This document shows, in pieces, positions 12,852-17,166 of a stretch of DNA of 64,000 nucleotides. The notes under the pieces are model-generated. The model was not told the origin of the DNA and searched no databases. It saw only the letters and a list, made by a program, of their open reading frames with translations. This DNA comes from Gammaproteobacteria bacterium. Lineage in GTDB: Bacteria > Pseudomonadota > Gammaproteobacteria > JAABTG01. Made by a program: the position numbers and the translations under genes. Location: NCBI GenBank assembly GCA_034522055.1, contig JAXHLS010000002.1, positions 930,001 through 994,000 on the forward strand, read 5' to 3'. The stretch's first letter is position 1. Every line of letters begins with the position of its first letter.

Positions 12852-13592
12852 ATGGCCATCAAGACCCACACCATCGAATACCACCACGACGACACCCTGC
12901 TGGAGGGCCTCATGGCCTGGGACGATGCCGCAGCCGCACCCCGCCCCGGGGTGCTGGTGGCCCCGGTGTGGGCGGGCCGCAACGCCCAGGCGGACCACAA
13001 GGCCGAGGCCCTGGCGGCCCTGGGCTATGTGGGCTTCGCCCTCGACATGTATGGCAAGGGCGTGCTGGGCAACAGCATCGACGAGAATGCCCGCCTGATG
13101 CAGCCGTTCGTGGATGATCGGGCCCTGCTCCAGCAGCGTATGCAAAGAGCCCTCGACGTCATGCGCGCCCAGGACCAGGTGGACGACACCCGCACCGCCG
13201 CAATCGGCTTCTGCTTCGGCGGCATGTGCGTGCTGGACCTGGCACGCTCGGGGGCCGAGATCGGCGGCGTAGTGAGTTTCCATGGCCTGCTCAAGGCCCC
13301 GGGCAACACGGCGGGCACCGCCATCAAGGCCAAGGTCCTGGCCCTGCACGGTCACGACGACCCCCTGGCGCCGCCGCAGGACGTGCTGGCCCTGGAGCAG
13401 GAACTCACGGCGGCCGGCGCCGACTGGCAGGTCCATGTCTATGGCCACGCCATGCATGCCTTTACCAACCCCGCCGCCAATGACCGGGACTTCGGCACCG
13501 TCTACCAGCCGGATGCCGACCGCCGCTCGTGGCGCAGCATGGAAGACTTCCTCGCGGAGGTGCTCGGGGCGGAGGTGCCCGGACCCGCCTGA
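12852..13592 (+). CDS. Dienelactone hydrolase family protein
   Basis: A 246-residue alpha/beta hydrolase with the dienelactone-hydrolase triad: nucleophile Cys in GFCFGGMC, Asp in LHGHDDPLAPP and His in YGHAMHAFTNP. Classical members open dienelactones in chloroaromatic breakdown. There is no signal peptide. A strong AGGAGG-like site (CAGGAGGACCACC) precedes the ATG. It is nine bases upstream of the IclR-RidA gene and co-directional with the aminophenol cassette, so a role in ring-cleavage metabolism is plausible but not proven. Confidence 0.85.
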   Translation: MAIKTHTIEYHHDDTLLEGLMAWDDAAAAPRPGVLVAPVWAGRNAQADHKAEALAALGYVGFALDMYGKGVLGNSIDENARLMQPFVDDRALLQQRMQRALDVMRAQDQVDDTRTAAIGFCFGGMCVLDLARSGAEIGGVVSFHGLLKAPGNTAGTAIKAKVLALHGHDDPLAPPQDVLALEQELTAAGADWQVHVYGHAMHAFTNPAANDRDFGTVYQPDADRRSWRSMEDFLAEVLGAEVPGPA

Positions 13593-13601
13593 GGCCCGGC
13601 C

Positions 13602-14780
13602 ATGGCCACCCCCAGGAACGCCTCCGTCCAGAAGGCCTTCCAGATCCTGGAAGTCTTCGCCCCCGCCGGTTGTCAGCTCACCGCCACCGAGGTGGCGAGC
13701 CGCACCGCCATGACGGTGGCTACCGCCCACCGCTTCCTCCTCACCCTGGAGCACCTGGGAGTGGTGTCCCGGGCCGGCGGCAACCGCTTCCAGCTCGGCA
13801 CCCTGCTGGCGGAACTGGGGGACCGGGTGGAGCACGACAAGCTCATGGCCCGCATCGCTCAGTCCCACGTAGATACCCTGACGGCCCGCCTGGGTGGGGC
13901 CGTGGCGGCGGCGGTCCTGAGCGGCCGCAAGGCCATCCAGATGGCCATGAGCCACGGTCCGGCGGCCGGCGCCGGGGAGCCCCCGGACCCCCGCCTGCCG
14001 GTGCACTGTACGGCCGCCGGCAAGGTGCTTCTGGCGGGCCTGCGGCCCGCCATGCTGGAGACCATCCTCGAAGACTTGGAGCTTACCGCCTACACCCCCC
14101 GCACGGTAACCGACGGGGTCGCCCTGCGGGCGGAACTGGAGACGGTCAGGGCCCGCGGCTGGGCCCTGGAGGACGCCGAGTTCGCCGCCGACACCCGCGG
14201 CCTCGCGGTGCCCATCCTGGACGCCCATGACCGGGTGGTGGCGGCACTAGCGGTGACCGCGGCACAGCACGAGATGGGCGATGCGGAAATGGAGCGCTGC
14301 CGGGAAGATCTGGCCCACCACGCGGCCCAGATCCACCGCGAACTCTACATGGAGAACAAGGTCCTGCCCACCAAGGCCCGGCCGCGGGGAAACTTCCCCC
14401 ATGCCAAGCGCATCGGCGACCTGATCCTGGTATCCGGCACCAGCGCCCGCCAGCCCGACGACACCTTCCCCGGCGTCTCTCCGGGGGCCGACGGCGTGCC
14501 TGTCTTCGACTTCCGTATTCAGGCACGAGCCACCCTGACCAATCTCTTCGACATCGTCGCCAGTTTCGGCGCCGCCCGCGAGGACATCGTGGAAATCCAG
14601 GCCTTCCTGGTGGGCATGAAGCACTACGATGCCTTCAACGAGGTCTACGGCGAGTTCTACGACCGGAGCGGCCCGACCCGCACCACCGTGGGGGTGAGCG
14701 AACTCCCCCACCCCCATCAGTTGCTGATGTTGAAGGCCATGGCCTACAAGCCCGCCCACACCTCCCGAGGGACCCTGTGA
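13602..14780 (+). CDS. IclR-family regulator fused to a RidA (YjgF/2-aminomuconate-deaminase-like) domain
   Basis: Residues 1 to about 70 form the IclR winged helix-turn-helix (VASRTAMTVATAHRFLLTLEHLGVV). About 75-250 form the IclR ligand-binding domain (CTAAGKVLLAGL; VTDGVALRAELETVRARGWALEDAEF). About 255-385 form a RidA domain similar along its length to the separate RidA protein 176 bases downstream ([36 protein letters not shown]). No stop or frameshift separates the halves. An internal ATG at 14349 lacks a convincing ribosome site. Arg360 of the RidA pocket is kept, but the glutamate found in VEMKAIA of the neighbour (Glu130) is Met376. I infer a regulator with an added imine/enamine-binding sensor. 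Confidence 0.85.
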   Translation: MATPRNASVQKAFQILEVFAPAGCQLTATEVASRTAMTVATAHRFLLTLEHLGVVSRAGGNRFQLGTLLAELGDRVEHDKLMARIAQSHVDTLTARLGGAVAAAVLSGRKAIQMAMSHGPAAGAGEPPDPRLPVHCTAAGKVLLAGLRPAMLETILEDLELTAYTPRTVTDGVALRAELETVRARGWALEDAEFAADTRGLAVPILDAHDRVVAALAVTAAQHEMGDAEMERCREDLAHHAAQIHRELYMENKVLPTKARPRGNFPHAKRIGDLILVSGTSARQPDDTFPGVSPGADGVPVFDFRIQARATLTNLFDIVASFGAAREDIVEIQAFLVGMKHYDAFNEVYGEFYDRSGPTRTTVGVSELPHPHQLLMLKAMAYKPAHTSRGTL

Positions 14781-14837: not shown

Positions 14838-14887
14838 GAAAAAATTCTCAATAAATTAGATTTTTTTCTTGATATATAAGATTTTTA
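14838..14887 (+). promoter_or_regulatory. AT-rich promoter/operator candidate before the ridA-amnBA genes
   Basis: An AT-rich island in otherwise GC-rich DNA contains two direct repeats, TTAGATTTTTT (from 14856) and AAGATTTTTA (from 14878). A TTGATA hexamer lies at 14869, but no good -10 follows at 17 bases. It lies between the fusion regulator and the ring-cleavage genes, so it is the natural place for that regulator to bind. Function is inferred. Confidence 0.45.
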
Positions 14888-14956
14888 CCCGCTAGACTCC
14901 TCCAAAAGCCTCTGCCCCCATGGGCAGGGTGAACCGGCGCGACGAGGCGGAAGACG

Positions 14957-16331
<1,375 letters not shown>

Positions 16332-16341
16332 GGAGCAGTCC

Positions 16342-17166
16342 ATGCCCATCGTCTCCGCTTTCCTGGTACCCGGCAGCCCGCTGCTGATGCTCAAACCCGA
16401 CAACCCCCCGTGGCGGGAGCTGGTGGCGGCCTATGGCGAAGCCGGCGAGATCCTGGCGGCCTCCAAACCGGACGTCATCGCCATCTACTCCACCCAGTGG
16501 ATGGCGGTGCTCGACGAGCTGTGGCAGACCCGCCCCCGCGTGGCGGGAGAGCACGTGGACGAGAACTGGCACGAGTACGGCGTCATGCCCTTCGACATGC
16601 ATATCGACACCGAACTCACCACGGCCTGCATCGAACGCACCAATGAATTCGGCATACGCTCCAAGGGTGTGGACTACGACCAGTTCCCGGTGGACTCCGG
16701 CACCATCACAGCCACCCATTTCCTCAATCCCCAACTCAATCCCCAAGGCCGGCTGCCCCTGGTGATCGCCGCCAACAACCTCTACCACGACGGTGCCGTC
16801 ACCGAACGGCTGGCGGCCACCGTGCGCCAACAGGCGGATGCCCTGGGCCGGCGCGTCGCCCTGGTGGGGGTGGGGGGCCTGTCCGGCACCATCTTCCGGG
16901 ACGACATCGACCCCGGCGCAGACCACGTGGCCTCGCCGGCGGACGACGAGGAGAACCGGCGCATGCTGGACCTCATAGCCGCCGGCGACGCCGCTGCGGT
17001 GCGGGCGGCCCTGCCCGCCTATGCCCGCGCCGCCAAGGCGGACATGGGTTTCAAGCACATGTCCTGGCTGCTGGGCGGCCTGGGCGACGGCTACGCATCC
17101 GCCCGAGTCCTGGGCTACGGGCCCACCTGGGGGGCGGGCTCCGCCGTGGTGGCCTTCACGCCCTGA
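16342..17166 (+). CDS. amnA: 2-aminophenol 1,6-dioxygenase, non-catalytic alpha subunit
   Basis: A 274-residue LigB-fold protein, the usual partner of AmnB in a mixed oligomer. It parallels the beta subunit but lacks its metal ligands; for example LAPHPP of beta corresponds to LVPGSP here. Both keep similar secondary features (VIAANNLYHDG; HMSWLLGGLGDG). It ends the operon: a strong factor-independent terminator follows 140 bases downstream. No genes for later steps (semialdehyde dehydrogenase, decarboxylase, hydratase, aldolase) follow. Confidence 0.82.
   Translation: MPIVSAFLVPGSPLLMLKPDNPPWRELVAAYGEAGEILAASKPDVIAIYSTQWMAVLDELWQTRPRVAGEHVDENWHEYGVMPFDMHIDTELTTACIERTNEFGIRSKGVDYDQFPVDSGTITATHFLNPQLNPQGRLPLVIAANNLYHDGAVTERLAATVRQQADALGRRVALVGVGGLSGTIFRDDIDPGADHVASPADDEENRRMLDLIAAGDAAAVRAALPAYARAAKADMGFKHMSWLLGGLGDGYASARVLGYGPTWGAGSAVVAFTP

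Follow-up and report, generated by a model that had tools for sequence, protein, structure and literature searches.

The gene at 13602-14780 of the window (a stretch of 64,000 nt, positions 930,001-994,000 of contig JAXHLS010000002.1, assembly GCA_034522055.1, Gammaproteobacteria bacterium) encodes an IclR regulator fused to a RidA domain. This fusion is a real, conserved and rare regulator architecture, not a sequencing artefact. Our best reading of the sequences is that it represents an enzyme-derived sensor carried by a classical regulator. We give slightly better than even odds to its being a dedicated regulator of the amn (2-aminophenol) genes that uses a captured, probably non-catalytic deaminase as sensor of a pathway intermediate. 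The following features of the window were used in the analysis.

12852-13592, + strand: dienelactone-hydrolase-family gene, 9 bp upstream of the fusion gene and beside it in the sister species too
13602-14780, + strand: IclR-RidA fusion regulator gene, 392 aa, identified by its open frame, Pfam domains and orthologues in three other genomes
13623-13772, + strand: IclR winged helix-turn-helix (HTH), residues 8-57 (Pfam HTH_IclR)
13851-14336, + strand: IclR_C effector-binding domain, residues 84-245 (Pfam; the model fits IclR/PcaR folds)
14358-14753, + strand: fused RidA domain of the 2-aminomuconate deaminase type, residues 253-384 (phmmer, model and tree)
14679-14681, + strand: codon of Arg360, the conserved pocket arginine, aligned with E. 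coli RidA Arg105
14727-14729, + strand: codon of Met376, replacing a near-universal Glu (E. coli Glu120, AmnE Glu133, Glu130 of the neighbouring RidA)
14845-14882, + strand: predicted three-box operator TTCTCA-N5-TTAGAT-N15-TAAGAT, a site also present at each of the three remaining fusion loci
14869-14898, + strand: sigma-70-like promoter TTGATA-18-TAGACT, overlapping the predicted operator, before ridA-amnBA
14957-15391, + strand: ridA/amnD, stand-alone RidA of the 2-aminomuconate deaminase type (6izh, E=6e-52)
15405-16331, + strand: amnB, 78% identical to CnbCb of Comamonas CNB-1
16342-17166, + strand: amnA, 2-aminophenol 1,6-dioxygenase alpha subunit (Pfam domain, homology)

The frame of the fusion gene is open from 13602 up to the stop codon at 14778-14780, and all three Pfam domains score well above cut-off. 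HTH_IclR (PF09339; E=1.8e-13, 50.4 bits against a cut-off of 22) and IclR_C (PF01614; E=6.7e-27) place the DNA-binding and effector domains in the IclR family, and Ribonuc_L-PSP (PF01042; residues 260-381, E=1.2e-16) places the remainder in the Rid-fold family. The original prediction, that a complete IclR regulator and a complete RidA domain share one uninterrupted frame, is thus borne out. Under the PcaR/PcaU/PobR subfamily model TIGR02431, the protein scored 153.5 bits, below the curated NCBIfam cut-off of 284.75. In a structure model (mean pLDDT 82.9, pTM 0.65), whose input alignment left out rows from plasmid records, residues 2-250 match IclR/PcaR structures with Z up to 27. A different angle between the two IclR domains raises the rmsd to 11-14 for some full IclR chains, and the effector domain by itself gives 1.6-2.9; the KdgR effector domain (1ysp) fits with Z 26.0 and rmsd 1.6 over 162 residues. 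The last IclR helix (227-249) passes into the RidA fold with nearly no linker, and residues 251-385 superpose on 2-aminomuconate deaminase (6izh_B) with Z 20.9 and rmsd 1.5 over 134 residues.

Full-length orthologues with the same three Pfam domains were detected in a sister species (90% identity, 388 aa), on plasmid pC of Ensifer adhaerens (46%) and in Novosphingobium humi (39%). It had been considered at the outset that a missed stop or frameshift near 14345 might have joined two genes, or that homologues might always be two separate genes. The fused orthologues argue against the latter, and a frameshift or missed stop was rejected because the junction is intact in all four genomes (the three others included) and dN/dS is low on either side of it. 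Between the window and the sister species, dN/dS was 0.10 for the RidA part, 0.15 for the HTH and 0.25 for IclR_C; no other part of the protein is as constrained as the RidA domain, where purifying selection is strongest. The HTH segment HRFLLTLE is identical across the four fusions. An internal TGA flagged in the sister's fusion gene was simply the natural stop codon of the 388-aa protein.

Occurrence of the fusion was limited: it is known from four genomes of three lineages, and two of these four members belong to sister species. Each fusion gene sits in an amn cluster that also contains LigB genes of the amnB/amnA type and a stand-alone RidA gene of the AmnD type, so that the search for the architecture and its neighbours returned the conserved fused family that had been anticipated, with every known member in such a cluster. 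No further full-length fusion outside the genus was found in about 1,150 genome scans, which covered relatives, 398 genomes from the phylum, 289 from the class that includes G446, 260 from the G281 family and 151 from the G124 family, and none was found in viral contigs. A genome-collection scan with short exact peptides detected the sister species only, a result that says little on distant members because the peptides were those of the window protein. In the literature searched, no description of an IclR-RidA (YjgF, L-PSP) fusion protein was found. Sphingomonad open frames of 354-448 aa around RidA matches proved to be read-through of an unrelated upstream frame. A Paracoccus match was likewise rejected as a fusion, being two separate genes with a stop between them; in Paracoccus denitrificans (L009 7980-9110) the IclR and RidA genes are adjacent but separate and the RidA is more distant. 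In genome G245 (L018 16238-17753), an amn operon ends with an AmnD-type ridA that is directly followed by a stand-alone IclR gene, and neither the fusion-type site nor the MarR site described below was found at this unfused locus.

As suspected from their resemblance, the fused RidA part and the RidA encoded at 14957-15391 are clearly related (53% identical). The nearest solved relative of the fused domain is 2-aminomuconate deaminase 6izh (phmmer, E=2e-38). In the tree, the fused RidA domains of the window, Ensifer and Novosphingobium form one branch (100/99) inside the 2-aminomuconate deaminase (AmnD) clade; for the IclR part alone, the tree does not resolve one clade. This grouping rules out that the fused domain arose by local duplication of the neighbouring ridA, the one checkable part of the original prediction that did not stand. 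Since the fused domains branch together across genomes, the capture is older than these genomes, that of the window included.

The by-eye assignment of a retained Arg360 and of Met376 in place of the neighbour's Glu130 was the same in the alignment. Of the two pocket residues that mark active RidA and 2-aminomuconate deaminase, the fused domain therefore has the Arg and lacks the Glu. The Arg is kept in all four fusions, and the loss of Glu extends to the whole fused family, with Met in 4/4 fusions and Glu in 17/17 AmnD-type enzymes. These 17 enzymes were also compared at positions that are invariant, or invariant in all but one, among them (AmnE-like numbering). The fusions retained the cleft Ser-Gly, Asn and Arg and showed the changes Glu133 to Met, His123 to Ser, Lys or Asn, Gln124 to Glu or Ala, Leu130 to Gln, Phe99 to Tyr and Asn95 to Gly or Asp, as well as differences at Ala49, Asp52 and Ala28. 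The AmnE hexamer is built by loops Lp3 and Lp2 (PMC6742747); His123 and Leu130 fall on Lp3, and Ala49 and Asp52 on Lp2. The pattern suggests that the acid and the enzyme's hexamer contacts were lost while the pocket and the trimer core were kept.

In TdcF, the Glu equivalent to E. coli Glu120 contacts bound 2-ketobutyrate, and Arg105 binds carboxylates (PMC1884159). However, loss of this Glu alone is not decisive, because Salmonella RidA lost little activity when the equivalent Glu was changed to Ala (PMC4433059); by analogy, the fused RidA domain could still be active. The protein would then be a bifunctional regulator-enzyme that clears the reactive imine or enamine, with IclR_C doing the sensing, and both the retained cleft residues (Arg, Ser-Gly, Asn) and the strong conservation of the fused domain would agree with this. 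We nevertheless consider an active deaminase unlikely, given that a Glu kept in every Rid subfamily examined (PMC4433059) and in all 17 AmnD enzymes is Met in each fusion. In addition, a separate AmnD-type RidA is present in every fusion cluster, so enzyme supply is not the need.

The fused domain might also serve as an oligomerisation module only, its trimer imposing a larger assembly, such as a hexamer made of three IclR dimers, that suits a three-box operator, with a vestigial pocket. Rid proteins form trimers and AmnE assembles as a hexamer (PMC6742747), and the AmnE hexamer-loop positions H123, L130, A49 and D52 are changed in all fusions, so that assembly may have been altered. Such a role is rather improbable, since the residues of a vestigial pocket should drift, whereas all fusions share the pocket Arg and further cleft residues unchanged, and since ordinary IclR regulators bind three-box sites without any RidA domain (PMC8222616).

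A DNA site for the regulator had been placed at 14.84-14.89 kb, and a conserved, specific site was indeed found there. Comparison of upstream regions identified the shared site ATCTCA-N5-TGAGAT-N14/15-TGAGAT in all four fusion loci, a predicted three-box operator of the IclR type that is newly described here. Its geometry is that of the known IclR sites of PcaU, PobR and HmgR (PMC8222616). Out of 18 positions, three are mismatched in the window and one in each of the sister, Ensifer and two Novosphingobium sites. When the intergenic regions with these five sites were shuffled 1000 times, no shuffle was as good at any of them. The counts fall short of fully independent evidence, since the motif was originally spotted by eye in the very loci concerned. 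Novosphingobium has a third, weak site in front of its second amnB (4 mismatches, 13/1000 shuffles as good).

Genome-wide uniqueness and control loci are better tests and weigh more than the shuffle counts. In degenerate form, the operator has a single match in the host genome (5.1 Mb) and a single match in that of the sister (3.9 Mb), each at the ridA-amnBA promoter; a reversed control pattern had no match in either. The operator was absent from 18/18 comparison loci: six amn loci that lack the fusion had no site at 3 or fewer mismatches, and the other twelve (eight with an AmnD-type RidA, four with a stand-alone IclR gene) had none at 4 or fewer. Conversely, four ordinary amn loci carry a MarR gene together with TAGKACGTATACGTACTA, the MarR site published for amnR (PMC3790839), at 2-4 mismatches; in the fusion loci, the best match to TAGKACGTATACGTACTA had 6/18 mismatches and no MarR homologue of the reference set was found.

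The predicted operator lies upstream of ridA-amnBA in the window and the sister species, and in the divergent amn promoter region in Ensifer; in Novosphingobium, it precedes both an amnB copy and the fusion gene itself. Its overlap with promoter-like sequence, seen in both the window and Ensifer, favours repression, but Novosphingobium gave no promoter-like match, which leaves this step weak. That the fusion controls another gene, either itself or the dienelactone-hydrolase-family gene that lies 9 bp upstream and is kept in the sister species, and stands beside amn incidentally, is very improbable, since the predicted operator is placed at amn genes in all fusion loci, is unique in the host genome and, in the sister, stays with ridA despite a hydrogenase operon that splits ridA from the fusion gene.

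By homology, the LigB pair of the window is a 2-aminophenol 1,6-dioxygenase. The start codon of ridA/amnD is TTG preceded by GAGG, as in the sister species. Lower meta-cleavage genes were found in the same genome far from amnBA (C6, about 616.6-622.5 kb; L026 8641-14544) and comprise a semialdehyde dehydrogenase homologue, two hydratase/decarboxylase-type genes, acetaldehyde dehydrogenase and aldolase; no second copy of the predicted operator was detected at these genes. In the sister species (L001 5150-10051), the set between the fusion gene and ridA-amnBA, absent at that place in the window, is a [NiFe] hydrogenase set; from inspection of the sequences, it consists of genes for NAD-reductase-like and iron-sulphur proteins, the small and large subunits and a maturation protease. 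Two amnBA copies flank the fusion gene in Novosphingobium humi (L008 7597-9335 and 15888-17659); the first is preceded by a strong predicted site and the second by the weak one. Sphingomonad clusters (L040-L047) combine hydratase-type genes with an AmnD-type RidA gene, and most of them include a semialdehyde dehydrogenase and mostly they lie beside a LysR gene; no amnBA homologue was found within the stretch read, and these clusters perhaps belong to another aminomuconate route. In two records (L007 7988-9843 and L016 12001-13783), AmnB/AmnA homologues are annotated as 'tRNA U-34 5-methylaminomethyl-2-thiouridine biosynthesis protein', a misleading label as the products are 2-aminophenol dioxygenase subunits.

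For the preferred reading, a dedicated amn regulator with a captured deaminase as sensor, we propose the following mechanism. The IclR part would bind the predicted three-box site overlapping the ridA-amnBA promoter, and the fusion most likely represses these genes. The C-terminal domain would be a captured 2-aminomuconate deaminase that kept the fold and the carboxylate-binding Arg and lost the active-site acid, and its cleft most likely binds 2-aminomuconate, or its imine or semialdehyde precursor, without turnover. The ligand state would be relayed to the DNA-binding part, releasing repression and allowing induction by pathway flux. DNA binding, repression, the ligand and the loss of catalysis are steps that we infer, and the intact IclR_C domain may be the real sensor. 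RidA clefts lie between trimer subunits and IclR proteins pair on DNA; therefore, a hexamer is a natural guess for the assembly.

More tentatively, and with the odds somewhat against it, the pseudo-enzyme may sense the unstable enamine of its own pathway while IclR_C receives a second input, so that amn would answer to both substrate and flux. In a bolder form of this idea, the fused domain would enter mixed trimers with free AmnD, whose active sites lie between subunits, and the regulator would read the amount or occupancy of the enzyme. 2-Aminophenol is a toxic compound. Few regulator families are known to have gained new sensory domains by capturing an enzyme. In this case, a single small locus contains the captured enzyme and its living relative along with the predicted operator and the pathway, and the differences amount to a handful of residues, which makes the change from enzyme to sensor directly testable. 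A working ligand would also provide a biosensor for aminoaromatic breakdown; the pathway intermediate is too unstable for easy assay (PMC6742747).

Several known systems resemble the fusion in part. PcaU, PobR and PcaR share HTH_IclR and IclR_C, the predicted operator has the three-box geometry reported for PcaU, PobR and HmgR, and PcaR (8ejv) matches the model with Z 27.2 (rmsd 11.5 over both domains, the domain angle differing); however, these regulators end after IclR_C, whereas the fusion adds a 140-residue RidA domain, and their half-sites are of the GTNCG type instead of ATCTCA/TGAGAT. AmnD/AmnE (6izh; RidA subfamily) shares its fold with the fused domain, and the two are 42% identical across 134 structurally aligned residues. 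The AmnE pocket residues Arg117 and Ser35-Gly36 are kept, but Glu133 is Met, the hexamer-loop residues are changed and the domain is fused to a regulator. It has been predicted that AmnR, a MarR-type protein of Burkholderia xenovorans LB400, represses the amn operon (PMC3790839). Its gene also lies next to amnBA, but AmnR differs in protein family and DNA site, and neither its gene nor its site was found in the fusion loci. MocR regulators (PMC5320631) offer a parallel in design, a DNA-binding domain with an enzyme fold as sensor; there, a GntR HTH is combined with an aminotransferase-like domain and a PLP ligand, so that both the HTH family and the enzyme fold differ from those of the fusion.
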